The notes below the pieces were generated by a model. The model saw only the letters and a list, made by a program, of their open reading frames with translations. It was not told the DNA's origin and did no database searches. Both the position numbers and the translations under genes were made by a program. From a virus: a stretch of DNA of 64,000 nt. The stretch spans positions 155,476 through 219,475 of IMG/VR virus record IMGVR_UViG_3300042540_001822. One strand, written 5' to 3'. Below, one piece after another: positions 22,826 to 57,076 of the stretch. Each line of letters begins with the position of its first letter. Position 1 is the stretch's first letter.

Positions 22826-23146
22826 TCAATAAACAATAGTTTGTGTCATATCTGGATTTGTTCTGTAAATTACCTCGGGACCAGGTGACATGATAACTGA
22901 AAGTTCATCTGACAGTGTTTGCAAACTTTGGATAAAATTTTGAACGTCGTCTTTTTTGGAAGCGGGAAAATTAAAATGAGTCATAACATCATTAGTCAGG
23001 GACTCAATAGAATCATCAAATTGCCCGGCATCATGAAAATCCATGTCCTTTTCATATTTTGAAACGAAGTCTTTGATTTCGTCCTGTTCTACCTGTGACA
23101 AAGAAAGATTCGACACAAAATCATCAAATTCTAGAATTCTTTTCAT
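22826..23146 (-). CDS. Hypothetical protein with N-terminal capsid-targeting-like motif
   Basis: A 106-residue helical acidic protein. It starts MKRILEFDDFVSNLSLS, the F-x-x-F pattern shared by many proteins here and similar in shape to the T4 internal-protein leader (MKTYQEFIAE). No other domain recognised. Possibly an internal head protein. Confidence 0.6.
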   Translation of the reverse strand: MKRILEFDDFVSNLSLSQVEQDEIKDFVSKYEKDMDFHDAGQFDDSIESLTNDVMTHFNFPASKKDDVQNFIQSLQTLSDELSVIMSPGPEVIYRTNPDMTQTIVY

Positions 23147-23161
23147 ATGACAAATTTTTTT

Positions 23162-23169
23162 GATATATA
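23162..23169 (+). promoter_or_regulatory. GATATATA promoter element, plus strand
   Basis: GATATATATATATTATAA begins at 23162 on the plus strand and ends about 15 nt before the ATG of the gene at 23195. Confidence 0.5.
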
Positions 23170-23194
23170 TATATTATAACCAAATAAATACAAA

Positions 23195-23641
23195 ATGGAA
23201 AAACATGATAAGGATAAAGATTTCTTGATCCAAGATTCGACAGAAGAATTTGAAACAACTGATTTGGATTCAAATGATGAATTCACCCTTGAAGAGGAGG
23301 ATTTTGACGAAGAGCCAGCAGAAGATATCGTAATTCAACCCCAAGAAGATAAAGACGAGGATGAAGATGATGATGATGAGGAAGATGATGACGAAGATCA
23401 GAAATCATCTGACACCGAAGATGAAATTTCCATGCAATATTACATGGATGATGAACCAGGAAAACCGGAGTTTAAAAAATCTAATAAAGAAGAAGATGAT
23501 GGGGAAGATGATGAGGATGATGAAGATGAATATATTTCTTTAAGTCACTCAGGGGAAGAACACAAAACCCCACAGAAATCCTCAAAAGGAACAAAGATAC
23601 TTTCATTTGAAGATTTTGTAGATGGTCTGGACGAGGATTAA
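23195..23641 (+). CDS. Very acidic Asp/Glu-rich protein, plus strand
   Basis: A 148-residue protein dominated by Asp and Glu, with near-unbroken acidic runs at about 50-72 and 95-115. The C-terminus KILSFEDFVDGLDED has the F-x-x-F motif found at the start of other proteins. Such acidic proteins can mimic DNA or act as head scaffold/core components (T4 gp67-like in composition); both are inference. Its stop overlaps the stop of the convergent gene at 23638. Confidence 0.7.
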   Translation: MEKHDKDKDFLIQDSTEEFETTDLDSNDEFTLEEEDFDEEPAEDIVIQPQEDKDEDEDDDDEEDDDEDQKSSDTEDEISMQYYMDDEPGKPEFKKSNKEEDDGEDDEDDEDEYISLSHSGEEHKTPQKSSKGTKILSFEDFVDGLDED

Positions 23642-23820
23642 TCCTCTGAAGTAGTACTTCTTCCAAGATCTCTACGGATCAGTTTTCTGACATAGTGAGA
23701 AATAGAAACTGGGGGATCACCTTTAGTTAAAGCTTGTTTCGAGATTTTTTTCCCAAGTTCTTCTAGATCTTCGCTAGAAAGCAACACTTGGATTTTTTCG
23801 GATTTTTCTTCTTTTGCCAT
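23638..23820 (-). CDS. Small ribbon-helix-helix-like protein
   Basis: A 60-residue protein: a beta-like strand (KIQVLLSSEDLEEL), a helix and SISHYVRKLIRRDLG, similar in layout to CopG/Arc-type ribbon-helix-helix DNA binders. It overlaps the 3' end of the convergent acidic gene by 4 nt. It may be a transcription regulator; the assignment is tentative. Confidence 0.5.
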   Translation of the reverse strand: MAKEEKSEKIQVLLSSEDLEELGKKISKQALTKGDPPVSISHYVRKLIRRDLGRSTTSED

Positions 23821-23833
23821 GATTGATTTTTTT

Positions 23834-25306
23834 TTAAATTGATTCGAATTTTATACCTCCATGAGGCATTCCTTTTGTTTTAAGTGGTCTGTAACCTTTC
23901 ATTTCGTCTGTAACTACGAATGCCTTATGAGGATTAACCATTACCCCCATTCTTTTCATTAAACCTCTATTTGCCAAAAAAGGAGTGCTTTTTTGAATTC
24001 TGTCAGTAGGTGCAACCTTAACATCGGAAATTTTAACTCCATTGAGCATCAAATCCAATGATATAATAGGTCTTTTTTCTTTTTCCCTTCCAATTTCAGT
24101 GTTTGTGTAACCTATAATTTCATCTGCGAAAGTATTTTCACCTATTTTCCAATATAGAACTCCATTTTTTTCCTCCAATTCATCAGCGTGAATCGAAGAG
24201 GCTGAAGATCCATTACCAGTGTCAAATTTTGCCACCATTTTACCAATTCTGGGAATATCTAAAGTTTCTAAATAGCCAACCTCCATTTTGCTATAGCTCC
24301 AATTATTCTTGTCTATAACATAGTCAATAACATCTCCAACAATAGGTCTTCCAATTGCCTGAGAAATACCTTCTGTTCCAGGAGAAGAATTGACCTCCAA
24401 AATGTAGGGTTTACCCGATTCAGCATCAATCATGATGTCTACTCCACACCAGTGGCTTCCGACTGCATTAGCGGCTTCACAAGCGAGAGCTGCTGTTTCT
24501 TCGTCGATATCATAGGATGAAACCTGCCCTCCCAAAGAGTAATTAGTTCTAAAGTCTTTTTCAACAGCTTCTCTTTTCATGGAACCGAGAATGGTGTAAT
24601 TTCCTTTTTTTGAAATAAGTGGATCGAATCTTTTAACGATTACCTGAATTCTAAGATCAAAATTAGAATTAATCTTTTCTTGTATCAAAATTTCCTTTTC
24701 CGGGTCTAGCTTTGCTATGGTCTGATAAACCGACTTTAAAGAAGCATAAGAATCAACAATCGAAACTCCAATTCCCTGGGTCCCAGACAGTAATTTCATA
24801 ACGACAGGAAATTTACCTCCAATCTGCTCCAAAGCGGAATCTAGATTGTCTTCCCCGTTGACTAATGCGTATCTAGGAACGGGTAAACCCTCACCCTCCA
24901 AAATCCGGGAGGTAAGAAATTTGCTTTCACAAATCTCAATTGATTCTAAAGAGTTAACGCAAAAATATCTAGATGCCTCCAAATCTCTCATGATTTGTTT
25001 GGTGTAGGAGTTGGTAATAACTCCTCTCCGAGGAATAATTGCAGTTTTATCTGGTTTAATTAGAATTTCTTTGCCATCTTTTTTTCCTTCACGAACCATG
25101 TGTCCGTTGTAAATTTTTTCCAACGTTATGTTGTTTATGTCCACCACGTTGCAGACGATTCCCCGATTTTCACACTCGGCCATAAAAGATTTAGAGGTAG
25201 GGCTGGGTTTGGCGGTACCGGACAGGATAAGAATTTCTACCCCATCTGAGGACTCGGATTCATTCAAGAAGGTTGAAAAATTAACAACAGAAGGAGCAAA
25301 GGACAT
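23834..25306 (-). CDS. RimK-type ATP-grasp ligase fused to a retropepsin-like domain
   Basis: About 490 residues from the ATG at 25306. An upstream GTG at 25339 lies inside a promoter element, so the inner start is chosen. The N-terminus FSTFLNESESS carries the F-x-x-F/LNE motif. The ATP-grasp domain follows: KFPVVMKLLSGTQGIGVSIVD, EILIQEKI, HWCGVDIMIDAESGKPYILEVNSSPG. The C-terminal 140 residues have AKFDTGNGSSASSIHADE, the D-T-G aspartic-protease motif of the RimK-associated retropepsin-like family (PF05618 type). RimK enzymes add glutamate or other amino acids to proteins or peptides. Fusion of ligase and candidate peptidase suggests add-and-trim modification of a target. Confidence 0.85.
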   Translation of the reverse strand: MSFAPSVVNFSTFLNESESSDGVEILILSGTAKPSPTSKSFMAECENRGIVCNVVDINNITLEKIYNGHMVREGKKDGKEILIKPDKTAIIPRRGVITNSYTKQIMRDLEASRYFCVNSLESIEICESKFLTSRILEGEGLPVPRYALVNGEDNLDSALEQIGGKFPVVMKLLSGTQGIGVSIVDSYASLKSVYQTIAKLDPEKEILIQEKINSNFDLRIQVIVKRFDPLISKKGNYTILGSMKREAVEKDFRTNYSLGGQVSSYDIDEETAALACEAANAVGSHWCGVDIMIDAESGKPYILEVNSSPGTEGISQAIGRPIVGDVIDYVIDKNNWSYSKMEVGYLETLDIPRIGKMVAKFDTGNGSSASSIHADELEEKNGVLYWKIGENTFADEIIGYTNTEIGREKEKRPIISLDLMLNGVKISDVKVAPTDRIQKSTPFLANRGLMKRMGVMVNPHKAFVVTDEMKGYRPLKTKGMPHGGIKFESI

Positions 25307-25329
25307 GAAAGTGGGAAGAAATTTTTCCT

Positions 25330-25337
25330 TATATATC
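25330..25337 (-). promoter_or_regulatory. GATATATA promoter element containing an upstream stop codon
   Basis: Minus-strand TGATATATAAGG; the TGA is the stop codon of the gene at 25336. It lies 24 nt before the chosen ATG of the RimK-type gene. Confidence 0.55.
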
Positions 25338-25965: not shown

Positions 25966-25993
25966 TTTTTGGAATTAAAATCGATTTTCGAAT

Positions 25994-26417: not shown

Positions 26418-26418
26418 T

Positions 26419-27573
26419 TTAAAAAAGAGTATTAATCATGAAAAGGTTGGGAGAAATCGGGTGGTGACCCATTACTTCTATGAAGCGGTTGATTGGATCT
26501 AAAATTGTTTTGGTGAACTGTTGGTCTAAATCCACCGGAGGAGCATACTCGTAAGGGTAATTTCCTTGAGAATAGGCAAAAACATTGTTTTCCTGTGGAT
26601 TATTGGTTTTAACAAAGTAAAATCTAACTTTTTCTCCGCTTCCTAACAGGGGATATTTGTCCTTGTACTTCGAGTTGTTTAGTATGTAATTATGATAGCC
26701 AGAAGCTCTGACGTGAATAGGGGTAGCCTTGGCAAATTCGAAACCTGTGGTGTCGTTTAAAATGAACTTCTCGTAGTTGTTAACCGAAATAGCCAAGGCG
26801 ATCCGTTCTGGTTCCTGGGCTTTAAAATCTTTCTTGATTGATTTTAACTCTGTAACGAACTCCCTAATGTTGAAAGACCTACCTTTCGTTAAAATAAACT
26901 TAGTTAAGTACATTAGCTTCTCACGAACAAAGGCAGGTGTGCCTCCTTTTATCATCTCAACTCCAGTGGTTTTGATGTTGCTTAGAGGTTCGAACTCCAC
27001 ACCATCTGAGTAAACTGTGTTCGTAACATATTTTTTCTTGCCAAGAAAGATGGCATTAATCGACAAGGTCTCAAGTTCGAAATCCTGATAGTTTTCCGTG
27101 TTCCATTTTTTGGCGTAAATCTCAAAGCACTTTTTAAGATAACCTTTTAATCTAAATTCATTGATTTTTAAAATCAATTCCTTTGGATCTCCTTGCCAGT
27201 TACAAGACGCCACGACTTCCTGAAATGTTACATAATTGGAGTCAGTATCACCATAGATAGTTAAGGGCCGGTGTACCTTCTTGACATCGGTGACTCCTAG
27301 TTTTTCATGAAGATCGACATCATCGTGCCAGAAATCGTGAAAGTATCTATGAATAATTTTTTCTGAATACTTGATTAAATCCTGTCCCTGAAGAGTAACT
27401 GCTTCTGCAACGTCTGTATTAAAGCAAGCAAAGAAATTATTTCCTACCGCTCCATAGATGGAGTTCATCGTTAACTTTACGGCTTGTTCCTCGTTCTTGA
27501 GCTCATTCTTTAGGGAGGTGAGCTCTTCTATTTTTAATTTTAGTTCTTTCGCATTTAGATTATGTGGTTCCAT
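26419..27573 (-). CDS. Family B DNA polymerase, C-terminal half (motifs B and C)
   Basis: 384 residues from the ATG at 27573; a TTG 12 nt upstream is the alternative. Motif B KLTMNSIYGAVG (33-44) and motif C YGDTDSNYV (107-115, catalytic D109 and D111) identify the fingers and palm of a family B polymerase. The exonuclease domain and motif A are missing here and are encoded at 47009-48412. The first 30 residues are a charged helix (ELKLKIEELTSLKNELKNEE) that could pair with the helix ending the other half. The gene lies 18 nt after the clamp-like gene, as expected for a replisome unit. Confidence 0.93.
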   Translation of the reverse strand: MEPHNLNAKELKLKIEELTSLKNELKNEEQAVKLTMNSIYGAVGNNFFACFNTDVAEAVTLQGQDLIKYSEKIIHRYFHDFWHDDVDLHEKLGVTDVKKVHRPLTIYGDTDSNYVTFQEVVASCNWQGDPKELILKINEFRLKGYLKKCFEIYAKKWNTENYQDFELETLSINAIFLGKKKYVTNTVYSDGVEFEPLSNIKTTGVEMIKGGTPAFVREKLMYLTKFILTKGRSFNIREFVTELKSIKKDFKAQEPERIALAISVNNYEKFILNDTTGFEFAKATPIHVRASGYHNYILNNSKYKDKYPLLGSGEKVRFYFVKTNNPQENNVFAYSQGNYPYEYAPPVDLDQQFTKTILDPINRFIEVMGHHPISPNLFMINTLF

Positions 27574-27591
27574 TCTTGTTCCCAATCTAAT

Positions 27592-29902: not shown

Positions 29903-31042
29903 TTAAGAGGTAGACTTATCGCCCTCGCCTTTAATTGCAGAAGCCAGAACAGGAGCTGGAACATCGTCCATTTCTACCAAAACAAAGTCAATTTGATTCT
30001 GGTTTTCCTTCCTCATTTCTTGAAGAACTTTTTGTAAATCGGTTGCATTTTTGAAAACGATACATCCAGCTGAATACCAACCTATTTCTTCTGTGGTGCC
30101 TGTTTTATTTCCTCTGTGAATGTTGATTCCATAATTTCCAGTTTCCGCATTTCCAGGAGAAAAGGTGGTGAACTTGGCCTTATTCACATCATCGACAATT
30201 GGGAATCTTTCTACCTTTACAGGTCCAGCCTGTACCAAAGCATCATAATCATTATGTTTACCAATTTTGTAAGGATATACCCCTGGCCGTAAAATTGCCA
30301 ATCCATCTGGATTAAGAGCTTCTTTGCTTTTGGCGAACCAATAATTTCTCAATTTAGAAATTAGAAAACTAGCACCTGGAACCGTGGTTCCTTGCATGAT
30401 GGACAAAGATTTTTCATTTTCTGGACTCATCAAAATCAAAGCATCAATAAATCTATTGGGATAATTCTTTTTAACCGAAAGGTAATTTCTAAGACCAACC
30501 AGGTTATATTTTTTAAAGTTCATTTCCCTGGCCAAACCTTTTTTTTCTAAAATGTATTTTAATCCTTCCCAAGACAAATCTTTAACGTCGTCAAATTTGT
30601 AATCTCCAGATTTTAATTCTTTGAAAATTTCTTTTGTTTCAGCCTCATCTGCAGTGGAAACCCCGGCAGAATTTAAAGCCTCAATGTCTTTTTCGGTTGT
30701 ATCTTTAGAATTAGAAGATTGATCACCGGATGTCCAATCCTGAGGGAGAATCCCCTTTTTTTTCAAAGCATCGAGTAATTCTTTATTTTCGTCCTTATGG
30801 AATTCCCCGGCAATTTTTTTGCCAATTTCGGTTCCATAAAAAAGGTCTGCAACGGAGATCGAGCTTTTACCCAGAGAGGTTGATTTGGACGTACTAGAAC
30901 TATCCTCAGATGAAGATTTTGTTTCTTTTGTTGCTTGTTTTAAAATAGATTCACTGGAATCTTCCTGAATTTTGGTGTAGCTATTAGAATTCAGAATAAC
31001 GAAAAATTCAGAAAATTTCAAAATGTTTTGTGACACAGACAA
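29903..31042 (-). CDS. Protein with L,D-transpeptidase-like HRG...SAGC site
   Basis: A 379-residue protein. The C-terminal part contains YGINIHRGNKTGTTEEIGWYSAGCIVF, in which H-x-G and S-x-G-C are spaced as in YkuD-type L,D-transpeptidases; the cysteine would be the nucleophile. The first residues, ILKFSEFFVILNSNS, show the F-x-x-F motif, and the middle is a Ser/Lys/Glu-rich linker. It may cut or cross-link host peptidoglycan, perhaps as a virion or injected enzyme. The start is TTG at 31042 or a nearby GTG, because an in-frame TAA precedes it. Confidence 0.6.
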   Translation of the reverse strand: MSVSQNILKFSEFFVILNSNSYTKIQEDSSESILKQATKETKSSSEDSSSTSKSTSLGKSSISVADLFYGTEIGKKIAGEFHKDENKELLDALKKKGILPQDWTSGDQSSNSKDTTEKDIEALNSAGVSTADEAETKEIFKELKSGDYKFDDVKDLSWEGLKYILEKKGLAREMNFKKYNLVGLRNYLSVKKNYPNRFIDALILMSPENEKSLSIMQGTTVPGASFLISKLRNYWFAKSKEALNPDGLAILRPGVYPYKIGKHNDYDALVQAGPVKVERFPIVDDVNKAKFTTFSPGNAETGNYGINIHRGNKTGTTEEIGWYSAGCIVFKNATDLQKVLQEMRKENQNQIDFVLVEMDDVPAPVLASAIKGEGDKSTS

Positions 31043-35918: not shown

Positions 35919-36473
35919 TTAGGAATTAGAAGGTTTGTAAAAAATTTCTTCCACCTTCATAGGGGCAATTGGTGCTTCAAAACCTTTCTTTTCTAAAGAG
36001 GCTGGAGTCCCTATAATATACTCTTTGGATCCGATTTTTTCAATCCTCTTTACAATAAATTCAGAATCAAAAAAGATGGTTCTTTGGTTGCCGAATCTAT
36101 CGATGTCAAAATCAAAATCTTTTGAATTTGGATCGATTTCTTTTCCTGTTTTTGCCTTGTAGGCCAAAGCAACTCTTTGTCTTTCTTTTTGAATTATATC
36201 TTGTATGTACTGTGGTGTACCCTTTCCCTGTGTCGGGACATCTGCTACGACAGTTATCTTTTTAATTTCTCCAGATTTTTGAAGTTCCAATAATTTTTGT
36301 AAGGTAGAAATAACCTCTGAATATTTGATGTTCTGATCAGGAGACGCTTTTACATCCGCCATAAACTTTACCTCATTGTAAACCGGAATAACCGAATAGG
36401 AACTTTGAGGTTCTTTTCTGACTTCCATAATTGGTTTTTTGGAGAAGTTTTCAAACAATTGTAAATGCTTCAT
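35919..36473 (-). CDS. Hypothetical protein with N-terminal capsid-targeting-like motif
   Basis: A 184-residue protein. It begins MKHLQLFENFSKKPIMEV, with the F-x-x-F pattern and an I-M-E that fits the I/L-x-E prohead-protease pattern. The rest is mixed alpha/beta (KYSEVISTLQKLLELQ, IKKITVVADVP). Function unknown. It is preceded by a GAATATATAA element that contains the stop codon of the upstream gene. Confidence 0.6.
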   Translation of the reverse strand: MKHLQLFENFSKKPIMEVRKEPQSSYSVIPVYNEVKFMADVKASPDQNIKYSEVISTLQKLLELQKSGEIKKITVVADVPTQGKGTPQYIQDIIQKERQRVALAYKAKTGKEIDPNSKDFDFDIDRFGNQRTIFFDSEFIVKRIEKIGSKEYIIGTPASLEKKGFEAPIAPMKVEEIFYKPSNS

Positions 36474-36496: not shown

Positions 36497-37369
36497 TTAT
36501 ATATTCTTAAAAATCTTAGTTTCGAAAAAACCTGTAAACAACCCGAACTGATCTTCATATTCTTTAGGAATTTTAATTTTAGATTTCAGATCATCTGGCA
36601 TGTGTTTCCACGCCTGTGACAGAAGGAGAACTATCTTCCCGGGATTCCTTCGGAGTTCCAAGTTCAACGAGTCCGGTTGGAGATATGGCAGGGTTAGGAT
36701 TAGTTTCTGTGCATTTTCTGATCCTTTTTCCAGAACTTCCAGCCATCCCTTCATGTTCCATTTACCCTTGATTAATTCAAATTCATCACAAAAAAATCGA
36801 CCATTTATTTCTTGTGGTGCTCCTTCCAAGGATTGGAGTTCGTTGCGGGAACAATTAAAAACTCCACCAACTTTCTTTGGTGCTCCTTTCAAGGACTGTA
36901 ATTGGTTTTGTGAACAATTAAAACCCATGCCAACTTCCTTCGGTGCTCCTTTTAATGATTGGAGTTCATTGAGCGAACAATTAAAACTCCCTCCAACTTT
37001 TTGTGGTGATCCTTCAAGTGATCGTAGTCCGTTGTTGCGAAAATAAAAATTACCACTAACTTCCTTTGGTGCTCCTTCCAGAGATCGGAGTTTGTTGCCG
37101 AAACAAGTAAAATTCCCAGTGACACTTCCAAATTTAATTAATCCCATAAAACTTTTTATTCCCTTTGGAGGATCATACAAGTTTTTAGAAATTTTAGATC
37201 CATAACAACGGAAATCCCCCCGAATGTCTACCAAACCTGTTGATGGATTTACTCTCCAGGTTCCTTTTGTGTTACGATTCAGGAAAATCCCATTATATCG
37301 ATCAAAACCCACAGGAATCCATTTTTGATTTATGGATTCGTAGATCCTAAATGGAATCAGATGTCTCAT
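36497..37369 (-). CDS. Leucine-rich-repeat-like protein (GAP-x-x-V-G repeats)
   Basis: A 290-residue protein with about six repeats of 21 residues of the form F-x-C-x-x-N-x-L-x-S-L-x-G-A-P-x-x-V-x-G (for example FNCSQNQLQSLKGAPKKVGG). The start MRHLIPFRIYES carries the F-x-x-Y/I-Y-E leader. The C-terminal 90 residues (KGWLEVLEKGSENAQKLILTL) are shared with the tandem paralogue at 37384. Repeats of this type are found in large phages and may mediate protein binding. Its end overlaps a promoter-like element. Confidence 0.8.
   Translation of the reverse strand: MRHLIPFRIYESINQKWIPVGFDRYNGIFLNRNTKGTWRVNPSTGLVDIRGDFRCYGSKISKNLYDPPKGIKSFMGLIKFGSVTGNFTCFGNKLRSLEGAPKEVSGNFYFRNNGLRSLEGSPQKVGGSFNCSLNELQSLKGAPKEVGMGFNCSQNQLQSLKGAPKKVGGVFNCSRNELQSLEGAPQEINGRFFCDEFELIKGKWNMKGWLEVLEKGSENAQKLILTLPYLQPDSLNLELRRNPGKIVLLLSQAWKHMPDDLKSKIKIPKEYEDQFGLFTGFFETKIFKNI
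36498..36506 (-). promoter_or_regulatory. GAATATATAA variant element containing an upstream stop codon
   Basis: Minus-strand GAATATATAA; the final TAA is the stop codon of the leucine-rich-repeat gene at 36497. It lies about 25 nt before the ATG at 36473. Confidence 0.4.
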
Positions 37370-45440: not shown

Positions 45441-46424
45441 TTAAAAATCTACATCTAAATCGAAAGCATCGGATGAACCATTTAGAACTCCCGCCTTCTG
45501 ATACTCTGCCACTCTTTTCTCAAAGAAGTTTGTTTTCCCCTGTAAAGAAATATTCGTCATAAAGTCGAATGGATTTTCGGATCCATACACTTTTGAACAT
45601 TCCAAAGAAACCAAAAGTCTATCTGCTACAAATTCCAAATATTGACTCATCAGATCAGAGTTCATGCCAATAAGTCTAACAGGCAAAGATTCCAAAATGA
45701 ATTCTTTCTCGATCTCCAAGGCACTGACAATAATTTCTTTGATTTTTTCTTCCGATACCTTGTTCGCCAGATATTTGTTATGAAGAAGAACTGCAAAATC
45801 GCAGTGCATTCCTTCGTCACGAGAAATGAGTTCGTTTGAAAATGAAAGGCCTGGCATTAGCCCTCTTTTCTTCAACCAGAAGATTGAACAGAAAGAACCA
45901 GAAAAGAAAATTCCCTCAACTGCTGCAAAGGCAATTAATCTTTCCTGAAAGTTAGGAGATGAAATCCATTTCAAAGCCCAATCTGCTTTTTTCTTCACAG
46001 CAGGAATAGTTTCAATGGCGTGAAATAAACGGTGTTTTTCCTGGGGATCAGAAATATAGGTATCAATCAACAAAGAATACGTTTCCGAGTGAATGTTTTC
46101 CATCATGATTTGAAACCCGTAGAAAAATTTTGCTTCAGTGTATTGAACTTCTCTGACAAAATTTTCTGCCAAATTTTCATTTACAATTCCATCCGATGCA
46201 GCAAAGAAAGCCAGAACGTGTTTGATGAAGTGTTTTTCATCTTCATTAAGCTTGTTTCTCCAGTGATCTAAATCGGAAGAAAGATCAATTTCCTCTGCGG
46301 TCCAAATGCATGCCATTTGATTTTTATACTGAGACCAAAGTTCGTCGTGTTGAATTGGGAAAATAACGAATCGATCTGGATTTTCTTGTAGGATCGGTTC
46401 TGGTAGCGAATATTCTTCCATCAT
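45441..46424 (-). CDS. nrdB: Ribonucleoside-diphosphate reductase, class I beta subunit
   Basis: 327 residues from the first of two adjacent ATGs at 46424 ([12 protein letters not shown]); the frame runs further upstream but would overlap the dUTPase gene. Di-iron ligands and radical site are visible: [37 protein letters not shown] (E-x-x-H) and [17 protein letters not shown], then [14 protein letters not shown] (E-x-x-H). It generates the tyrosyl radical for NrdA. In an operon with the dUTPase upstream and nrdA downstream. Confidence 0.96.
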
Positions 46425-46459
46425 AGGGTTTCTATTTATTTTTATGTTTTTAGTAAGAT

Positions 46460-46927
46460 TTAATAATTGTTTGCCTGCCTTCTGCGATTTTCCTCGTTTT
46501 TGGACATGTACATGTTGTACATTTCCTCTGCAGTCATACCGATCGAAACTGCATAATTCATGAAGAAATGAAGTATATCCACAATTTCGAATTTGCATTC
46601 TCTTTGGTCAGAATCGGACAAATCTGAAAATTTAATTTCGGAATAGGTGGCATATTTTTGCTTCCATTTTTTCCAAACTGCATTTCCGTGTCCGTCCTTG
46701 ATTCCGCCCAAAGCATCTGTGGCTTCGTGGATTTCATCAATTATGGAGTGGCTATTCATGTGCCAAAAATCCATTACATCTCTAAGTGTCATGTTTGAAA
46801 AGTCATAACCATAAACTGTAGCCTGTGTGGATGCCTGTAAATTTAAAATGTCTCCAAGTGTGTCTTTAGATTCTGCGTACAAATTTTTGATTTCTAGATT
46901 AGAACATTGATTGTCAGTGTTTGCCAT
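46460..46927 (-). CDS. Dimeric dUTPase / MazG-like NTP pyrophosphohydrolase
   Basis: A 155-residue all-alpha protein. [22 protein letters not shown] supplies the first E-x-x-E/D metal site and [21 protein letters not shown] the second (E-x-x-D), as in dUTPase_2 and MazG folds; the tail [17 protein letters not shown] is typical of dUTPase_2. It would hydrolyse dUTP to dUMP, feeding dTMP synthesis and keeping U out of DNA. It directly precedes nrdB, forming a nucleotide-supply operon. A GATATATA element starts the unit. Confidence 0.85.
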
Positions 46928-47008: not shown

Positions 47009-48412
47009 TTAGGACATTTTTTTCAATTGTTTCTCCAACTGGTCGATTTCTATTTGGAGTTTTAACATTTTATCCTTGGCCATTCTTCTTTTGGCGTAAA
47101 GGTCTTTAATTATCGACTTCAAAATTGGATCTTCGTCGTCTCCTCCGAACACAGCTCCAGAGGAAGTTTTAATCCAACTTTCTTTTATGTCCAATAAATT
47201 TTTGCCTTTGTAAACTTCAGGAGAGATTCCCCACTGCACAATGGCGTTGGGATATAGAGAAGCAAAGTCATAACATGCTACCCATTCGTGCAAACCAACA
47301 ATTGGATCTTTGACATATGCACCGGCAAATTTGACGTGATTTTCATCCTTTCTGGTTTGGACAAAGACCTGCTTTCGTTCGAGAAATTTTCTCATCATCA
47401 TTACCTCGGTAGACCACACTGGGGAAAGAGCCCTATTGATTTCAACACCGTTTAAATTTGCTATCTTAAAGAAGGTCAGCATTGTCTTCAACTTCTTGTC
47501 GATATAATGAACCAGTGCACAGTCAATGGCGTTGTAAAAAATGAATTTACTGAAATCTGATTGGTAAAGAGTCCGTAGTGTTCCCTCGTAATGAATTTTC
47601 TTTAATCCGGTTGCTTTTTCTGCCACATAATCCAAACGATTACTTTCCTTAATTTTGATTACCCTGTCCCACTTCTTGTAAATTTCAAGATAGTCGATCA
47701 TGAGGATGTGGGCTGGAAGTTGATTTTGTCCAATAAAATAACCACTCGGAGACATGATTTTTGGATCTATTCCAAGCCTTTTGGCTCTATTAATAAGATA
47801 AGGCCAGTCGTATCCAAACCAGTTCCAACCTGTGATCACCGACATCTTAGATGCTATATCCTTGAAGAAGGTGTAAAGCATGTCATACTCAGACTCGAAC
47901 TTTTTGTACTTGAAGTCCCAGGTGTCTCCTTTTTCTTGTAAATACTCGTTGACCTGTTGGTGAATCAATCCCTGTTGTTCGGCATCCAAATCGTCCAGCC
48001 CCAGGACGATCAACTTGCATTTATCTGTGGCTATTCCTATGGACAAAATTTTATTTTTTGCCTTCTCAGTATCCAATGAATCTTTCATCTCGTCGGTCAT
48101 CTCGACCTCGATGTCCACGAAGAATTTTTTTGGGGTTTGAAATTCCCAAAGTGGTTTAGTCAGTTCTGGATCCGCCTCTTCGAGCAATTGTAAAATTCGA
48201 TATTTGTCGTATTTTGTGTTTTTATATTTCTTAATTGAAGATCCCTCCCAATTTTTCCAAACTTTATCCCGATCCCTATCGCTGTGTGAACAAATCTGCC
48301 AGACGAATCTTTCCTCTGGTGGAATCGGGACGTTAACAAATGTAATGTTTCCTTCCGGAGAAAAAGTCGAAATTTTGAGTTCTTCTCCGTTATTTTCAAT
48401 ATCTACTATCAT
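47009..48412 (-). CDS. Family B DNA polymerase, N-terminal half (exonuclease and motif A)
   Basis: 467 residues from the ATG at 48412 (MIVDIENNGEELKIS); an upstream in-frame start would run into the divergent gene at 48443. Exo I is FFVDIEVEM (D100, E102), Exo II VITGWNWFGYDWPYL (about 196), Exo III FYNAIDCALVHYI (about 294), and palm motif A CYDFASLYPNAIVQWG (about 383). It ends at a charged helix (KMLKLQIEIDQLEKQLKKM) before motif B. Motifs B and C are at 26419-27573. Both halves are intact and apparently functional, so together they would form one polymerase. Confidence 0.95.
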   Translation of the reverse strand: MIVDIENNGEELKISTFSPEGNITFVNVPIPPEERFVWQICSHSDRDRDKVWKNWEGSSIKKYKNTKYDKYRILQLLEEADPELTKPLWEFQTPKKFFVDIEVEMTDEMKDSLDTEKAKNKILSIGIATDKCKLIVLGLDDLDAEQQGLIHQQVNEYLQEKGDTWDFKYKKFESEYDMLYTFFKDIASKMSVITGWNWFGYDWPYLINRAKRLGIDPKIMSPSGYFIGQNQLPAHILMIDYLEIYKKWDRVIKIKESNRLDYVAEKATGLKKIHYEGTLRTLYQSDFSKFIFYNAIDCALVHYIDKKLKTMLTFFKIANLNGVEINRALSPVWSTEVMMMRKFLERKQVFVQTRKDENHVKFAGAYVKDPIVGLHEWVACYDFASLYPNAIVQWGISPEVYKGKNLLDIKESWIKTSSGAVFGGDDEDPILKSIIKDLYAKRRMAKDKMLKLQIEIDQLEKQLKKMS

Positions 48413-48429
48413 AAATGAAATCCTGAATG

Positions 48430-48437
48430 GATATATA
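48430..48437 (+). promoter_or_regulatory. GATATATA promoter element, plus strand
   Basis: Plus-strand GGATATATACAC, 5 nt before the ATG of the plus-strand gene at 48443. It lies in the 30-nt gap of a divergent gene pair. Confidence 0.55.
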
Positions 48438-48442
48438 CACTT

Positions 48443-48769
48443 ATGTTGGACAATCTTAAAAGTTTCGGAAATTTTGTAACTGAAAACTGGAGCGCATTTG
48501 CTCCGGGAAGCGTAGCTGTGCCTGGAGAATGGTACAAGGACAATGTTAATTCCAGAAATTATCGTCCTGCCTACACCCAAATGCCTAGAGTTGTAGACGA
48601 TCTTTACAACACTACGGATTTATATTCTTATTTAGACGAGTTAGCAGAAGAAGAAGAATTTCAAAAAATGCTTACCAAAGATCACAAGAATTCCAAGAAG
48701 ATTTTAAAGTACGTGAAACAAAGAATTCACGAGACACTTTCAGGCAAGGCCAAAACAGAGTCTAAGTAG
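48443..48769 (+). CDS. Hypothetical protein with N-terminal capsid-targeting-like motif, plus strand
   Basis: A 108-residue protein starting MLDNLKSFGNFVTENWSAF: F-x-x-F then V-T-E, similar to T4 internal-protein leaders. The middle is proline/tyrosine-rich and the rest helical and charged. It is divergent from the polymerase N-half and has its own GATATATA element, consistent with late expression. Its 3' end overlaps the convergent glycosylase gene by 43 nt. Confidence 0.65.
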   Translation: MLDNLKSFGNFVTENWSAFAPGSVAVPGEWYKDNVNSRNYRPAYTQMPRVVDDLYNTTDLYSYLDELAEEEEFQKMLTKDHKNSKKILKYVKQRIHETLSGKAKTESK

Positions 48770-49670: not shown

Positions 49671-50132
49671 TTATTTCTCCTGCAATTTTTTCATTGTTTT
49701 CACAAAATCAGAAAAATTCTGAATAGTTTTAGACCTTGTTTTTTTTCCTTTTTTGTCCTTTTGTGCTGATGGAGTTCCAACTGTCAGAGAGGTAAACTTA
49801 TCTCCAGATCCTTGTTTAGAAGCATCGTAAAAATTTGCATTTGTTCCTGGACCTGTTGGTGGTGTCACCGGTCCCATACCAGGGGTAGAATTTAAACTCG
49901 CCATTCCGCCTTCACTTTCTTCCATCTTGAATTTTGGATAACCACATTTTTGCATGTAATTTTCAACCTGCCAATTTTCTGTACAATATGAATTTTCCAC
50001 CATCCATTCACACAGAGATTCTAAAATTTCTTCGGCAGAATTTTTTTCGGATTCATAATAAGGAAGATCGTCACAACAGCATAAACAAACTACTGTGTGT
50101 CCTTGTGTGGTATTACCTGTTGGGAAAAACAT
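49671..50132 (-). CDS. Hypothetical protein with Cys-rich start and C-terminal F-x-x-F motif
   Basis: A 153-residue protein. N-terminal TVVCLCCCDDLPYYE is cysteine-rich; the middle is a Gly/Pro/Thr linker (TPGMGPVTPPTGPGTNANF); the C-terminus KTIQNFSDFVKTMKKLQEK has the F-x-x-F pattern found at protein starts elsewhere. The linker resembles virion-associated proteins. Function unknown. The 117 nt upstream of the Hsp20 gene contain only an AT-rich TGTTAA/TTAACA palindrome. Confidence 0.6.
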   Translation of the reverse strand: MFFPTGNTTQGHTVVCLCCCDDLPYYESEKNSAEEILESLCEWMVENSYCTENWQVENYMQKCGYPKFKMEESEGGMASLNSTPGMGPVTPPTGPGTNANFYDASKQGSGDKFTSLTVGTPSAQKDKKGKKTRSKTIQNFSDFVKTMKKLQEK

Positions 50133-50831: not shown

Positions 50832-51524
50832 TTAAGATTTTTTACTCGAAATATAATCACGGTAATCTGCCAAATGTGTCATTTTCTTTTTTCCTTTTGG
50901 CTTGGTTACCTCTGGATTCAAATGTGGAACGATAGGTTTAATACCACCTCCTACGTTCAAACCCGGAGTAAAAGTTGGCATTTTCTTCGAACCAATGATG
51001 GGAGAAGTTGCACCAGATACCGGAATCCCTTTCTCATCCAGTGATTCTGATTCTTCAACTTTTCCCGTCAACATTTCAATATCTTCTATTGATAAACCAT
51101 AATCATCGTTAAAATCTGTGAAGTAAACATGTCCATTCACATTTTGTCCAACTTCAGTTACTGTTAAAACGTCACCCTCTTGAAGATCTTCAAAACCTTT
51201 AGCAGGAGAATACCACTCGGGATAAGTTACATTCATAATTCGAATTTTATCGCCTGGTTTGTAATATTGGGTCTTCGATTTTGTTGAGTCTTCCTCGACT
51301 GCTTGATAATCGTCGTACTCGAAAGTTTCTTTTACGTAGTGTGGGAGTTTTCTGGTTTTGGTTGAAGCATACTTCTCCAACTCCTTGTTGGTCATCTCTC
51401 CATCGGCAATAGCCTTGATTTCTTTCCTATACTTTGAATCGATGTCTTTTAATTTAAGTTGACCCGACCTTAAAGCCCAAGCCTGGCCCATGAGAGATTG
51501 TTGTGCTTTTGAAACTGCTGGCAT
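50832..51524 (-). CDS. DUF3008-like protein with C-terminal motif
   Basis: 230 residues from the ATG at 51524 (MPAVSKAQQSLMGQAWALRSG); a further ATG 12 nt upstream overlaps the preceding gene. The first 55 residues match the DUF3008 pattern (P-A-V-S-K-A-Q-Q...KYAST), a small conserved phage/bacterial domain. The middle holds an SH3-like beta segment (YKPGDKIRIMNVTYPEWY, GDVLTVTEVG). The C-terminus THLADYRDYISSKKS resembles the aromatic terminal motif. Likely virion-associated. Confidence 0.7.
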   Translation of the reverse strand: MPAVSKAQQSLMGQAWALRSGQLKLKDIDSKYRKEIKAIADGEMTNKELEKYASTKTRKLPHYVKETFEYDDYQAVEEDSTKSKTQYYKPGDKIRIMNVTYPEWYSPAKGFEDLQEGDVLTVTEVGQNVNGHVYFTDFNDDYGLSIEDIEMLTGKVEESESLDEKGIPVSGATSPIIGSKKMPTFTPGLNVGGGIKPIVPHLNPEVTKPKGKKKMTHLADYRDYISSKKS

Positions 51525-51528
51525 TTTA

Positions 51529-52128
51529 TTATTCAATTTTTTTTAGTTTTATGTAGTAATTAGGATCTTCAAATAGATGATCCATGGCTATTTCTCTTGC
51601 CTTTTGTGGAGAATCTGTGTGTTCCATCTCAACAAAAACACCATCAACCAACTGTCTGGTTAGGTAATCTACAACTCCTGGTAAATTGTGACCAATTGTT
51701 TCGGTGTGTTTTTTCGCTAAATCTAAAATTGTGAGTTTATCCCCTACTCCACCTTTAAGAATTTCACTGGATGTATTATTTTCTTTTAGATAAAGATTTT
51801 TCATTTTCTTTTTCATCTCCGAAGGTGTCATAGGCTTAGCGTTCAAGCCCCAATTGGCATTCGGATTGATGATTTTAGAAGATTTCTTTTTCCATTCGGG
51901 AAAAGTCCAAAGCCACTTGTTGTATGCCTTTCCCACAATTTCGAATCCCTTGTCTCCCGGTTGGATAGCGATTGGTGATTGTGGAGGCATATAAGAACTC
52001 GTCTCTGCCTCATTACTTTGTTTGAAAGCCTTGTCGACCAACTTAAAACCACTATCTCCGTCAGGAATTTTCTTGGCAGATTTGGGTGGTTTGTAGCTTG
52101 AGGTCAGAGACGGGTTCTTTTTTTTCAT
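51529..52128 (-). CDS. DUF5661-like protein
   Basis: A 199-residue protein. The C-terminal 85 residues (KGGVGDKLTILDLAKKHTETIG then FVEMEHTDSPQKAREIAMDHLFEDPNYYIKL) match a domain often found in large phages and annotated as DUF5661: V-E-M-E-H-T-x-x-P-x-x-A-x-x-I-A-x-D-H-L-x-E-D-P-x-Y-Y. The N-terminal part has two similar SYKPP/SYMPP segments. Function unknown, often near structural genes. Confidence 0.75.
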   Translation of the reverse strand: MKKKNPSLTSSYKPPKSAKKIPDGDSGFKLVDKAFKQSNEAETSSYMPPQSPIAIQPGDKGFEIVGKAYNKWLWTFPEWKKKSSKIINPNANWGLNAKPMTPSEMKKKMKNLYLKENNTSSEILKGGVGDKLTILDLAKKHTETIGHNLPGVVDYLTRQLVDGVFVEMEHTDSPQKAREIAMDHLFEDPNYYIKLKKIE

Positions 52129-52431: not shown

Positions 52432-52453
52432 TTTTTTCCAAAACACAAAGCAC

Positions 52454-52483: not shown

Positions 52484-52500
52484 TGGGTAGTAGAAAGAAA

Positions 52501-52677: not shown

Positions 52678-52760
52678 GATAATTGGTTTTTTGTTTTATT
52701 TTAGATCCAAAATTCTAAAAAGTTCCCATTTTTGGATCTTTAAGTTCGATTTTTTTTAAT

Positions 52761-53294
52761 TTATCTGTTCCACAAATAAATCTTTTTGGAAGATCCATCT
52801 TGCATGTGCCAATCTTCTCCCAAAGCGAAAGAAAGCAATGATTTAGAATATGCTCCATAGTTCTTGATGTCCAAATTCAAATTCATCTCATCAACCATTC
52901 TAATGATTTTTGGATTTTTCTCCAAATAGCTGGAAATACACTTTCCGATTTGTTCGAACAATCTAGAAAGTTCACCACCGGATAGTTTAAAAGAAACTTT
53001 GTTTTTTTCTGGCAAACTTCCTTTATTAATCGCAATATCTTCTATGACTTCTGTTCCAATTTTGTTGATGTTCAAAACAGCGTATGAATTTTTGGGACCA
53101 TCCATAGACTCATATTGTGAATACTTTCCTATCATCAAACAGAATCCTTCGGGATCTTCTTTTTCTCTTTCCAATTGGAAAAAGTAATAATAAACATCAC
53201 CTTCTTTTTTAAGTAAAAATGGCATTGTTCCGAAGCCATCGGCCTCGTTCAACGTGTTTGACAGAAAATCTGTATAATTAAATAAATTTTTCAC
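52761..53294 (-). CDS. Hypothetical protein with capsid-targeting-like leader
   Basis: A 177-residue protein with GTG start at 53294. The leader reads KNLFNYTDFLSNTLNEADGFG, with F-x-x-Y-x-x-F followed by LNE-A, a very good match to the T4 prohead-protease pattern (L/I-x-E before A/G/S). The rest is mixed alpha/beta. Function of the mature part unknown. The 83 nt downstream of it hold no gene. Confidence 0.65.
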   Translation of the reverse strand: MKNLFNYTDFLSNTLNEADGFGTMPFLLKKEGDVYYYFFQLEREKEDPEGFCLMIGKYSQYESMDGPKNSYAVLNINKIGTEVIEDIAINKGSLPEKNKVSFKLSGGELSRLFEQIGKCISSYLEKNPKIIRMVDEMNLNLDIKNYGAYSKSLLSFALGEDWHMQDGSSKKIYLWNR

Positions 53295-53311
53295 AGTGAA
53301 TCTTTTTTGTG

Positions 53312-53319
53312 TATATATC
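53312..53319 (-). promoter_or_regulatory. GATATATA promoter element overlapping an upstream stop codon
   Basis: Minus-strand AATTAGATATATACAC; the TAG stop of the ligase-NMNAT gene provides the G. It precedes the GTG at 53294 by 17 nt. Confidence 0.55.
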
Positions 53320-55232
53320 TAATTTTTCTTCAAGTCTGACACCAAACCAGAATACAAATTAAGTACCGACTTTGGCAGCATCTTTTTCAAGGATGCATAA
53401 TCTTCTTCTTCCAATTTAGATCTTACCTCTGTGGCAGAGGTGCTTCTAGGCGTTTCAACCAATTTAAAGTCTTCCGGCAATTTATCGAACAACTCCGTTT
53501 TTTTAATGTAATCCATCTGCTTGTCATAATCGTCTTGTCGATCTTCACCAGCTCCGACGAGATGTGGCTCGAATCCCATCTCCACCAATTTGTTCACTGC
53601 AGATCCCAACAGACCCCGTGGAACGATCATGTAGTCCTTTAAAACATCTCCGTGTTCTTTTACCACAGCATCCATATACTGCTTTATTGTTGTTTCCCCA
53701 AATGGAGATTTTCCACTCTTATTGTGTCCAGGATAAACAACAACCACAAAAGAAGGTAATTTATTTTCCTCGTGTAACTTTTTGGCCATCTTTAAATGTC
53801 CCAAATGAAAAGGTTGAAAACGCCCCATGATGACATTGATCTTTTTGTCTTCTTCCTTTTCAACCAATGGTTCTTCTTCATCAGAAGATTGCTGGTCTAT
53901 ACTTTCTAATTTAGAAATAAAATCATCGAAAGAAAGTAAAGGATTTTCGTTCTTTTCTGTATCCTCGCTTTCTTCCAACACATATTTCACATTAGGCTTT
54001 GAATCTTTTTGAAAATCCAAAAAGCTAACAAATTCGGATTCATTGACTTCTTTTTCTGGACGTTCGATATGATCTTTAATTTCTTGGATTAGCAAATTCA
54101 GCTGGGCCAGAGTTCCAGATGTGACTATTCCAGAAGCACGGGTTTTTAGTTTTCTGAAAGAATTTAACAGAAGTTTGTACAGTGACTCGAAGGCTTCGTC
54201 TTCTTCAACAAATTTTGCCACTCTACGATCCCTGACCAAATCCCTATTTAATCTGAATTCTGGCTTTTTTAGATATTCTGGTTCTTCAAAATCTGCTCCT
54301 CTGTATTTCTCGGCATTTTCCTCCAAAAATTTAGCAAACACGTCAGAAATAAATGAAATATACCTTTCGTCTTCTCCTTCTCCTTCTACCTCAAAAGAAT
54401 CTACACCCTGCTGTAGGATAAAATTCATTACGTCTAACAGGGTAATTCCAAGAAAATCAGAAGGCTTTTTATCCCTCTTTTCTTGATATTTTGTTTTGGC
54501 TAAATCAGTGAACAAAGGATCAACCATCTTTGCCAGAACCGTTTCATTCTCTGAATTTGGTTCTCCGAATCTGAATACTACACCTTCTACATCTTTATCT
54601 AGATCATCGTTCAGAGCGCTGGATTTCAATTCTGGATTTAAAACAGAAATGATAAATCTAACAAAACTTTGGGTTTGGAATCTCGAAACTAGCTGCTGAA
54701 ATGGAGTTGCCAAAAATTCGGTCAACTGCTCTTTTTGTGTTTCGTCCAGATAGCCTTGGAAAATAATAGGGCTTCTTTCCACTCCCAATAAATCTGCCCA
54801 CGTGTCCAATTTTTCTTTCTGCTGAATTGTTTTGGCGATCTTTCCTTGTAAATCCATTTTATGGACGAACGAAAGTATCAAGTGATTCTTAGGAATTCTG
54901 TCGTAAACAATTTCAACAGGCTTAGTGTTGGCAAAATATTCCAATCCAAATCTCCAACCTCTTGGAATTTTTTCTAAAATGTCAGGAGGCAAGGATTCAA
55001 TGTACTGAATTGGCTTTTCGTAATACTTCATCAAAGTCCTGTCAACCAATGTGATTGGATTTCTTTGGTCTCTCCTATAAAAATTGAACTTACCAGTTTC
55101 TAAATCCCTCTCAAAAGAAAAGGCAGATCCATCCATCTTTTCATTGATGGTAACAAATTGAGAAAAAAGAGATTGAATGAAATCCGCCCCTTTCTTATTA
55201 TACATATCGTATAGGTGGTTGATACCTGCCAT
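53319..55232 (-). CDS. Nucleic-acid ligase-like domain fused to NMN adenylyltransferase-like domain
   Basis: A 637-residue two-domain protein. The N-terminal part has a nucleotidyltransferase/ligase signature: INEKMDGSAFSF (K32 in K-x-D-G, motif I), WRFGLEYF (motif III-like) and KDVEGVVFRF (motif IV, E-G-V-V). The C-terminal part, from about 465, is a HIGH-type nucleotidyltransferase: VIMGRFQPFHLGHLKMA (about 467-483) and ETPRSTSATEVRSKL (about 590-604), as in NMN adenylyltransferases. Between them lie acidic linkers with VSFLDF and LLSFDDFISKLES, which resemble the packaging leader. RNA/DNA repair joined to NAD synthesis is plausible but inferred. Confidence 0.82.
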   Translation of the reverse strand: MAGINHLYDMYNKKGADFIQSLFSQFVTINEKMDGSAFSFERDLETGKFNFYRRDQRNPITLVDRTLMKYYEKPIQYIESLPPDILEKIPRGWRFGLEYFANTKPVEIVYDRIPKNHLILSFVHKMDLQGKIAKTIQQKEKLDTWADLLGVERSPIIFQGYLDETQKEQLTEFLATPFQQLVSRFQTQSFVRFIISVLNPELKSSALNDDLDKDVEGVVFRFGEPNSENETVLAKMVDPLFTDLAKTKYQEKRDKKPSDFLGITLLDVMNFILQQGVDSFEVEGEGEDERYISFISDVFAKFLEENAEKYRGADFEEPEYLKKPEFRLNRDLVRDRRVAKFVEEDEAFESLYKLLLNSFRKLKTRASGIVTSGTLAQLNLLIQEIKDHIERPEKEVNESEFVSFLDFQKDSKPNVKYVLEESEDTEKNENPLLSFDDFISKLESIDQQSSDEEEPLVEKEEDKKINVIMGRFQPFHLGHLKMAKKLHEENKLPSFVVVVYPGHNKSGKSPFGETTIKQYMDAVVKEHGDVLKDYMIVPRGLLGSAVNKLVEMGFEPHLVGAGEDRQDDYDKQMDYIKKTELFDKLPEDFKLVETPRSTSATEVRSKLEEEDYASLKKMLPKSVLNLYSGLVSDLKKN

Positions 55233-55239
55233 GACTTAT

Positions 55240-55665
55240 TTATTTGTGTGTGAAATCTTTTTTGAATGTGAAGATCCCATATGCTTTTTCCATTTCTTTG
55301 TTCAAATCTTCAACCAGATCCATATGAATGACTTGACTAATTCCTTCTATAATTTTTCTAACAAAAATTTTGGACTTTAACTGTAGAGGGGAATTCCAAG
55401 CCAAAATAAGTTTAGGAAGATAAATTTGAATTCCAGGGGGATCAAAATTTTCGAAATCAATAAGTTCGAAAACCCTTTTTTCCACCGTGTAAACTAACTC
55501 GTTATTCAATAATATTTTTCTGTCTCCGTGTTTTGTTTTTATAATTAAACCGGAAGAACCATTTTCAGTTTTAAATAAAACCAGCTTTCCATCTCTGACA
55601 ACTGCCTGTGGGGAATTACCGTCAAGAAAAAAATCCAAGGCTGTGTATAAGGGATCAAACATCAT
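55240..55665 (-). CDS. Hypothetical protein
   Basis: 141 residues from the ATG pair at 55665 (MMFDPLYTALDFFLDG), which overlaps the preceding gene by 11 nt; the longer frame would overlap much more. Beta-rich first half (AVVRDGKLVLFKTENGSSGLIIKTKHG) and a helical end. Function unknown. It lies between two nucleotidyltransferase genes. Confidence 0.6.
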   Translation of the reverse strand: MMFDPLYTALDFFLDGNSPQAVVRDGKLVLFKTENGSSGLIIKTKHGDRKILLNNELVYTVEKRVFELIDFENFDPPGIQIYLPKLILAWNSPLQLKSKIFVRKIIEGISQVIHMDLVEDLNKEMEKAYGIFTFKKDFTHK

Positions 55666-56593
55666 CGGACAAAGAATTTTGTTTAGTTTGTACCTCTGAA
55701 GGGATTGGCAATTTAGCACGTTCTAAATATCTGGCAAAGTCTTCCACAATATCTAACATTTTATCATTATAAATGTAACTAGGTGAAGTAACTAAAGACC
55801 AGGCATCTTCAAATGTTTTCACTTGATTTGGATCAATCCCTGGACCAAACATAAGTTCTACTGCCTCTTGTGGATCGTTGGTGACAAATTGGACTGTTCC
55901 TTCTATGGTTTGTGGTCTAGAAAGTCTGTTCTTTCTTATTCCACGGTAGGATTTTTTGGATTTAAAAATTCCTTCACTTAATCTCAAAACATAGCCTTCA
56001 TAATCCATGATTTTCCCCTCTTCATCAAGACTTTCTACCTCTTTTAAAGAAGAAAGAATAGCCTGAAAAAGCCAATTCCGATGGGCAGATTTGTACACAG
56101 ATTCGTCAAGACGATAATCCGGAGAGTAATAAATAAATCTTGCCCAATCCATATTGGAAAGAGGAATAAGATCCAACTGAACAATTCCTTGAGATGGATC
56201 TCCTCCGATTGGCCAACCGATTGAAAGTACTCCTAAACCCTTCATGAGCTTCATGTCGGGTTCAAATCCAAGGATTTCAGGCAATTCAGTAGACAATAAC
56301 TGTTCCAAATCCGTCAAGACAGTTTCGGGGCTGGAACCCAATTGATCCATCAGATACTCTTTGGAAATCCCCAAATCGATGTCACCAGAATCGTCCGTTG
56401 GGTTTTTCTTTTTTCCAATGCTTCCGATTAGCAAAAAATCCTCGTCAAAATTACCACCGCCCAAAATAGAAAACAGATTTGATTCTATGTGTTCCAATGT
56501 GGACTGTGCTTCATCCTCCCTTATTCTACGGGAGGTTTTTATGGCGGCCCCGCCTTCATTTAATCTCATAAATTGGTTGAAATTAGCAATCAT
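55655..56593 (-). CDS. Nucleotidyltransferase-fold protein with capsid-targeting-like leader
   Basis: A 312-residue protein. The leader MIANFNQFMRLNEGGAA has F-x-x-F and an LNE-G site. DFLLIGSIGKKKNPTDDSGDIDLGI then IVQLDLIPLSN give the G-S...D-x-D and third acid of the polymerase-beta nucleotidyltransferase superfamily (for example CCA-adding or minimal nucleotidyltransferases). The substrate could be tRNA, protein or a small molecule. Next to the ligase-NMNAT gene, it suggests a nucleotide-transfer group in the virion (inference). Confidence 0.75.
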   Translation of the reverse strand: MIANFNQFMRLNEGGAAIKTSRRIREDEAQSTLEHIESNLFSILGGGNFDEDFLLIGSIGKKKNPTDDSGDIDLGISKEYLMDQLGSSPETVLTDLEQLLSTELPEILGFEPDMKLMKGLGVLSIGWPIGGDPSQGIVQLDLIPLSNMDWARFIYYSPDYRLDESVYKSAHRNWLFQAILSSLKEVESLDEEGKIMDYEGYVLRLSEGIFKSKKSYRGIRKNRLSRPQTIEGTVQFVTNDPQEAVELMFGPGIDPNQVKTFEDAWSLVTSPSYIYNDKMLDIVEDFARYLERAKLPIPSEVQTKQNSLSDDV

Positions 56594-57076
56594 TTAATCT
56601 AAATCAAAATATTTTCTAGAACGTCTTAAATAATCTCGATATTTTCTTTGATCTTCAGTTTTAGGTTTTTCCACATCGAAATCAGAACCGAAAGTTTTTT
56701 TACCAGAATACAAAGATCTTGTGTAAAAATCTTCATAATCTTTTTCTTTGTTTTTTCCACTTTTCTGAATACTTTCTCCCCATCTGCTAAAAACCTCTTC
56801 TTCATCTTTTGATCCCTTTGGAAGTTTACTTCCAATTGCTCCGAAAATTGCCTTACCAGCTTTAGAGATACCAATCCCAGCTGCTCCTAAAAGTCTTCCT
56901 AGAGCTCCTCCTGGATCTTCTGCCATGGCTTTAGCCCAGCTCGAATAACCTCTCCAATTTTCTCCTTCTATTTCAGGAACTCTAGATCTTATTCTTGCCT
57001 CTAGTTCTTCCCACTTTTTTTTTGCAATATTTTCATTCAAAGAATTAAATTCATCAAATTTTAAAACTGAGGACAT
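56594..57076 (-). CDS. Hypothetical protein with capsid-targeting-like leader
   Basis: A 160-residue protein starting MSSVLKFDEFNSLNENIAKK, with F-x-x-F and LNE. A glycine/alanine-rich stretch (LGRLLGAAGIGISKAGKAIFGAIG) could be amphipathic or membrane-active; the rest is highly charged. It directly abuts the nucleotidyltransferase gene (no gap). A packaged or injected protein is possible. Confidence 0.65.
   Translation of the reverse strand: MSSVLKFDEFNSLNENIAKKKWEELEARIRSRVPEIEGENWRGYSSWAKAMAEDPGGALGRLLGAAGIGISKAGKAIFGAIGSKLPKGSKDEEEVFSRWGESIQKSGKNKEKDYEDFYTRSLYSGKKTFGSDFDVEKPKTEDQRKYRDYLRRSRKYFDLD

Follow-up and report, generated by a model that had tools for sequence, protein, structure and literature searches.

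A leader resembling the T4 capsid-targeting sequence on many proteins, enzymes included, of a viral record related to huge phages

The internal proteins IPI-III of bacteriophage T4 carry a short capsid-targeting sequence (CTS) at their N-terminus. The positions at which IPIII and the T4 capsid protein gp23 are cut are established; in the T4 record, the IPIII leader reads MKTYQEFIAE|A and the gp23 site FGSFLTE|A (the bar marks the cut). Residues 4 and 7 of the CTS act in targeting and residues 8 and 10 in processing, and fusions to IPIII or to the CTS package foreign proteins in T4 (PMC9026906). Here we describe a leader of similar form on proteins of the 219,475-base viral record IMGVR_UViG_3300042540_001822, of which bases 155476-219475, a stretch of 64,000 nucleotides, are the window analyzed. 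As in T4, it is a short N-terminal leader with aromatic-x-x-F, hydrophobic-x-E and a small residue past the cut, in the same order and spacing, and a gp21-type protease and a gp23-type capsid protein are present in the lineage. We interpret it as a T4-type capsid-targeting and processing signal, with a probability of about 0.82. In T4 the aromatics stand at residues 4 and 7, whereas here they stand at residues 7 and 10, a shift of three residues. Here multi-domain enzymes and repeat proteins bear the signal as well, and copies of it are located at C-termini and in a linker.

The ADP-ribosyltransferase Alt of T4, an enzyme that travels in the head and whose propeptides are processed at either end (PMC9026906), is a further parallel, although T4 has one such enzyme, whereas many unrelated enzymes share one leader here. 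The ejection proteins of the giant phages SPN3US and phiKZ are similar in that many processed proteins lie within the head, but their propeptides are mostly long, several of them exceeding 100 residues (PMC5694885), in contrast to the short leaders described here (about 11-27 residues). The same leader system occurs in the gene relatives LR756500-LR756504 and LR745206, of which the ones larger than 634 kb are members of the Mahaphage clade. PMC7162821 assigns genomes above this size to the clade, with Bacteroidetes as predicted hosts; no discussion of the leader was found in it, and the words “injected” and “prohead” are absent from its main text. No report of the leader system was found in the open literature searched, most subscription papers and bioRxiv being outside this search.

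All leaders, C-terminal motifs and the linker motif quoted in the preliminary description of this DNA were found in the sequence as quoted. Whether they are commoner than chance depends on the form that is counted. The loose F-x-x-F motif lies near chance (its broadest variant, [FYLIMVW]xx[FY] within the first 30 residues: 244 vs. 222 ± 9 expected, not clearly above chance), whereas specific forms are well above shuffled sequences. The form [FYW]xx[FY][ILVMF]xE in residues 2-25 is present in 12 proteins compared to 1.7 after shuffling (maximum 6), and the overlapped form F-x-[LIV]-[FY]-E in 19 compared to 0.6 (maximum 3); many of these 19 are paralogues of one repeat-protein family, without which 4 are left. 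A scan with position matrices, as the preliminary description had put forward, was also run; the two matrices, built from one genome and applied to the other, were diluted and discriminated weakly.

Since the count of the loose motif was unconvincing, a spacing test which does not start from the motif was used. For every spacing between 1 and 8, proteins with two aromatics so placed in residues 3-17 were counted and compared with shuffles, near-identical N-termini having been taken out beforehand. Over the whole record, the sole enriched spacing was i,i+3, with 84 proteins vs. 43.6 ± 5.3 shuffled (84 vs. 46 in a rerun, z = 7.3); the window alone gave 20 vs. 10.7 ± 3.0. The aromatic pair peaks at residues 7 and 10 of the record proteins (27 proteins vs. 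about 5 elsewhere), and this peak recurs in LR756500 (37 vs. about 8), in LR745206 (74 vs. about 12) and in contigs of the same clade, where it is clear in G005 (31) and weaker in G010 (13). Spacings 4 and 7 are raised as well in LR756500 and LR745206, which is expected from a common tyrosine at residue 3. In contrast, the same position test gave no 7/10 peak in phiKZ or T4, the latter showing only a slight peak at the start of its own CTS aromatics (residues 3-4). The exact counts of leader proteins are approximate, because gene starts were taken from a simple home-made caller.

The second half of the signal follows the aromatic pair. L/I-x-E is found within residues 8-22 of 25 of the 36 record proteins with 7/10 aromatics, compared to 2/36 in control residues 40-54 of the same proteins. 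Glutamate follows the pair at residue 11 in 44% of cases in the record and 37% in LR745206, and at residue 13 in 62% of the 7/10-pair proteins of LR756500, compared to 7-8% overall. Directly after the first hydrophobic-x-E, most of the proteins have A, S or N. Two dialects can be distinguished, the T4-like F-x-x-F-[LI]-x-E-[ASN] and F-x-[LIV]-[FY]-E-[AS], in which the cleavage motif overlaps the second aromatic.

The preliminary description had also pointed to the prohead protease and its cleavage sites. A gene for it was found in relatives, where the capsid pro-site matches the leaders, and none in the record itself. Relatives were searched for head genes because the record, probably a fragment, gave no S77 or Gp23 match. 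All five huge-phage records searched contain matches to the gp23 capsid protein and the S77 protease (S77 exceeding the Pfam cut-off in one record and falling short of it in the other four), and in 12 contigs of the clade that holds the record's RimK fusion and ligase-NMNAT gene both are above the cut-off. The protease keeps the GE[FL][DN]HP motif of T4 gp21 in the five huge phages and the 12 contigs, and in the former also the SSR motif. In relatives, this gp21-type (S77) gene adjoins the capsid gene, and in G005 and G010 leader genes lie directly downstream of the capsid gene. The capsid pro-site reads WLTKYCHYHSLNE|SAGAY (YCHYHSLNE|S) in the closest clade and WMAEYAEFHQINE|NAY and WMSEYAEFHSINE|NAY (e.g., YAEFHQINE|N) in two larger phages, the cuts being predicted. 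These pro-sites take the form aromatic-x-x-aromatic-x-x-L/I-x-E, as the leaders do (compare KFDEFNSLNE|N of gene 56594), a match seen purely at the sequence level and in relatives.

Leader and capsid protein also meet in single genes. Protein 177 of LR745206 (84 residues) begins with MRYLKPYKKFIENADGSSTSGMGAV and continues as the capsid mature arm; its alignment with the capsid protein scores 99.5 (shuffled maximum 45), and the leader falls on the capsid pro-site. In the window, gene 49671-50132 (minus strand) contains a blastp match to the capsid mature N-terminal arm at 49785-49925, starting at the predicted LNE|S site (E 3e-9, 48% over 58 columns with the G010 capsid protein). Overall, small proteins that carry a copy of the capsid mature arm behind a cleavage-like site are located at 49785-49925 of the window and at 93266-93520 and 554784-555284 of LR745206, and short proteins at LR745206 291407-291880 and LR756500 252195-252704 start as the capsid pro-region (KKWAPIIE...HYAEMHSINE) and are without most of the capsid protein. 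A T4-type packaging code had been suggested for this DNA from the start; as a reading of the sequence it is strongly supported by gp23 and S77 in genomes of the same clade, the motif in the capsid pro-site, the NE|[A/S] of the RimK leaders and the fusion of a leader to the capsid arm.

Among the leader-bearing proteins of the window (minus strand unless stated), the RimK-type ATP-grasp fusion (gene 23834-25306/25339) begins with the leader MSFAPSVVNFSTFLNE|S at 25259-25306. In 26 distinct relatives it is kept as [FY]xx[FY][LI]NE|[AS], with N and E in 26/26 and A or S next, and the residues around the kept positions vary. The ATP-grasp domain is fused to a weak zinc-protease-like domain below the Pfam cut-off. 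Adenylate kinase (gene 42068-42730; Pfam ADK, E 1.5e-35) carries MSTVKKFDEFIHLQE|R at 42686-42730, and its domain begins past the leader, as the Pfam domains of tagged proteins do; orthologues have FSDFLIE|R and FDEFLNE|R. The RimK and adenylate kinase identities given earlier thus hold above Pfam cut-offs. The nucleotidyltransferase-like protein of gene 55655-56593, with MIANFNQFMRLNE|G at 56555-56593 and YTQYMELNE|G or FARFSSIFE|G in orthologues, was previously labeled a nucleotidyltransferase; weak structural matches to this fold were found and nothing stronger. Gene 56594-57076 starts with MSSVLKFDEFNSLNE|N (57032-57076), in the form of the capsid pro-site Y-x-x-Y-H-S-L-N-E|S. Gene 52761-53294 has NYTDFLSNTLNE|A (53244-53294; orthologues YSQFITQLNE|A, FDQFTSPVNE|N and NFADFVGSRIDE|G), and gene 48443-48769 on the plus strand has MLDNLKSFGNFVTE|N (48443-48484; orthologues SFEDFLLE|Y and KFEGFINE|W).

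The product of gene 29903-31042, with ILKFSEFF...KIQE|D at 30962-31042 and VLNFQDFL...RITE|N in the G010 orthologue, had been called L,D-transpeptidase-like. No Pfam match bears this out; instead it matches PHROG endolysin (1.2e-6) and phrog_3000 (1e-20). Its enzyme class rests on PHROGs, as the AlphaFold model has a mean pLDDT of 31.5, and back-translated patterns found no relatives of it on viral contigs. Further leaders are MKRILEFDDFV (23114-23146, gene 22826-23146; orthologues LEFDDFVSNLSLSE and LEFSEFEDAGLSE) and MKHLQLFENFSKKPIME|V (36423-36473, gene 35919-36473; orthologue FESYEGLDE|A). Two repeat proteins follow, one with MRHLIPFRIYE|S (37337-37369, gene 36497-37369), similar by eye to leucine-rich repeat (LRR) proteins and with about 20 paralogues in the record, the other with MKHIQPFVLFE|A (38302-38334, gene 37384-38334) and ending in GFDELGLF. 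Orthologues were compared at the N-terminus in 15 cases, including RimK, at 32-80% identity, and 14 of them keep an aromatic pair and a later hydrophobic-x-E. NrdB (45441-46598) was dropped from the count, as the only part of it that matches is an N-terminal extension missing from relatives.

Copies at other positions were found in four genes of the window. Two F-x-x-F motifs (53901-54032, minus strand) lie in the linker between the RNA-ligase-like and the NMNAT/cytidylyltransferase domain of gene 53319-55232, and their aromatics are kept in relatives at 65% identity. The name ligase-NMNAT stands for the NMNAT-like domain, which is above the Pfam cut-off, and less firmly for the RNA-ligase domain, which is below it (E 1.4e-4). 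Among the phage records searched, only six, all of uncultured huge phages (462-735 kb), hold relatives of this gene. In four huge phages (W02-W05) the ligase is shorter, has no second domain and ends in an LLDFGDFF-like tail. C-terminal motifs are NFSDFVKTMKKLQEK (49674-49718, minus strand) in gene 49671-50132, with SFSDFL, DFGTFV and SYKEFV in relatives; LADYRDYISSKKS (50835-50873, minus strand) in gene 50832-51536, with LKDYRDWIK in relatives; and ILSFEDFVDGLDED (23597-23638, plus strand) in the very acidic protein of gene 23195-23641, recognized from its letters alone. For proteins with a C-terminal or linker motif alone, the packaging interpretation is less certain.

The tag is probably borne by tens to about 100 genes per genome, including ATP-grasp, adenylate kinase, ligase-NMNAT, lysozyme, endolysin-like and repeat proteins. 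A phage lysozyme and a LysM protein are further leader-bearing proteins in the record; in LR756500, true LRR proteins, an ATP-grasp enzyme and a VWA/metallopeptidase-like protein carry it, and in LR745206 128 proteins fit the broad leader pattern, chance matches included. A second motif, [GS]F[ED][ED]LG[ILF] or its C-terminal variant (GFDELGLF/GFEDLGI), is present in 35 record proteins, 20 times at the C-terminus, and 30 of the 35 also have the leader. In LR756500, 14 proteins end in NADDFGFFDN or similar (NADDFGLI), 13 of them with the leader. The two signals are strongly associated; this is partly due to paralogy and is a lead rather than a result. About 20 repeat proteins, built of LTSLEGAPQTVGGDF-type units in varying number and mostly with both leader and C-terminal motif, form an array at 76-95 kb and 112-114 kb of the genome. 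A role of the second motif as a sliding-clamp-binding tail is disfavored, as the polymerase-like proteins of the record and of LR756500 end differently. Another motif, CW[SN]G[YF]K..G.K..NGK.VPNCV, occurs at 96146-98077 of the genome and at 145753-145887 of G005 beside leader-like FSNFLAE and FNEFLAE; the G005 protein has 44 residues and consists of little else.

The leader could work as follows. The aromatic pair would dock a tagged protein to the prohead core, which would bring it into the head, and the protease would cut after L/I-x-E to free the mature protein there. By analogy with the T4 internal proteins and Alt, the cargo would then leave with the DNA and act early in the host. The C-terminal copies and those in the ligase-NMNAT linker may do the same job from another position. 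Both packaging and cleavage are suggested by sequence comparison. Several observations count against this interpretation. The record itself gave no match in Pfam S77 and Gp23 searches; with no capsid gene found in it, it is probably one piece of a larger genome. The site of capsid cleavage is predicted, and in T4 the cut in gp23 lies further downstream. Far more genes are tagged here than the few of T4, and about a third of the record leaders are without a clear L/I-x-E by the strict form. Column-aligned leader aromatic pairs were kept in 15/18 cases compared to 20/34 other pairs of the same proteins, a difference which is not significant (p = 0.12).

The leader might instead send proteins to another phage-made site, such as a replication compartment, a phage nucleus or a membrane. 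The tagged proteins include several enzymes of nucleic acids or nucleotides, and a phage nucleus with selective import has been described in a different family, the Chimalliviridae (PMC11087766). However, the UvsW-, primase-, SSB-, polymerase- and topoisomerase-like proteins of the record (assigned by eye and by match to LR756500) have no leader at their start, whereas cell-wall enzymes carry it; moreover, the L/I-x-E|[ASN] site is the same as the capsid pro-site, and the leader can stand in for the pro-region ahead of the capsid arm. We regard another destination as very unlikely. Even less credible is a start-proximal sequence shared for reasons of translation or mRNA and spread by duplication of gene starts. 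Many leaders do open with MKH, MKY or MKN followed by I or L, and some leader families are true tandem paralogues, but the signal persists after removal of near-identical N-termini, recurs at C-termini and in a linker, and keeps its residue class (F/Y, L/I) while the neighbors change.

Another alternative accepts loading of the prohead and differs in the fate of the cargo, most tagged enzymes being core residents that are cut or lost at maturation and not delivered to the host. Leader genes adjoin the capsid gene in relatives, and the T4 core proteins gp22, gp67 and gp68 are cut to short fragments (PMC5694885), which would fit this idea. Adenylate kinase, RimK, ligase-NMNAT and lysozyme, however, are catalytic domains without obvious scaffolding use, and T4 Alt, an enzyme, does get delivered (PMC9026906). 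We consider such a loss unlikely. Under the capsid-targeting interpretation, ejection into the host and early action would be expected by analogy to T4.

The replication genes of the record are T4-like, as judged by eye and by match to LR756500: a two-piece polymerase, topoisomerase, primase-, SSB- and UvsW-like proteins and ribonucleotide reductase. The DNA polymerase is split into 26419-27585 and 47009-48580 of the window, about 20 kb apart, and LR756500 has the same split. A tmRNA gene is predicted at 20435-20872 of the window; its tag peptide is unusual and long, with GPIPFRSL at the end. Arrays of small paralogues starting with MTIAQQIKWDFKTNG are located at 59-61 kb, 138-140 kb and 149-151 kb of the genome.

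The principle is known from T4; novel here are its scale and lineage, the enzymes, the additional tag positions and the capsid-arm proteins. Probably a large protein cargo is carried in the particle. More tentatively, at slightly less than even odds, the largest phages may load their heads with a programmable set of tens to about 100 different proteins per genome, specified by the leader and, in two lineages, also by the second motif; the protease may split ligase-NMNAT at its linker, and the capsid-arm proteins may take part in head assembly. Sequence alone could predict which uncharacterized proteins of the largest phages travel in the particle, and the head cargo of uncultured huge phages becomes testable via peptides that start right after L/I-x-E. 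The leader points to the delivery of an enzyme kit by these phages at infection.

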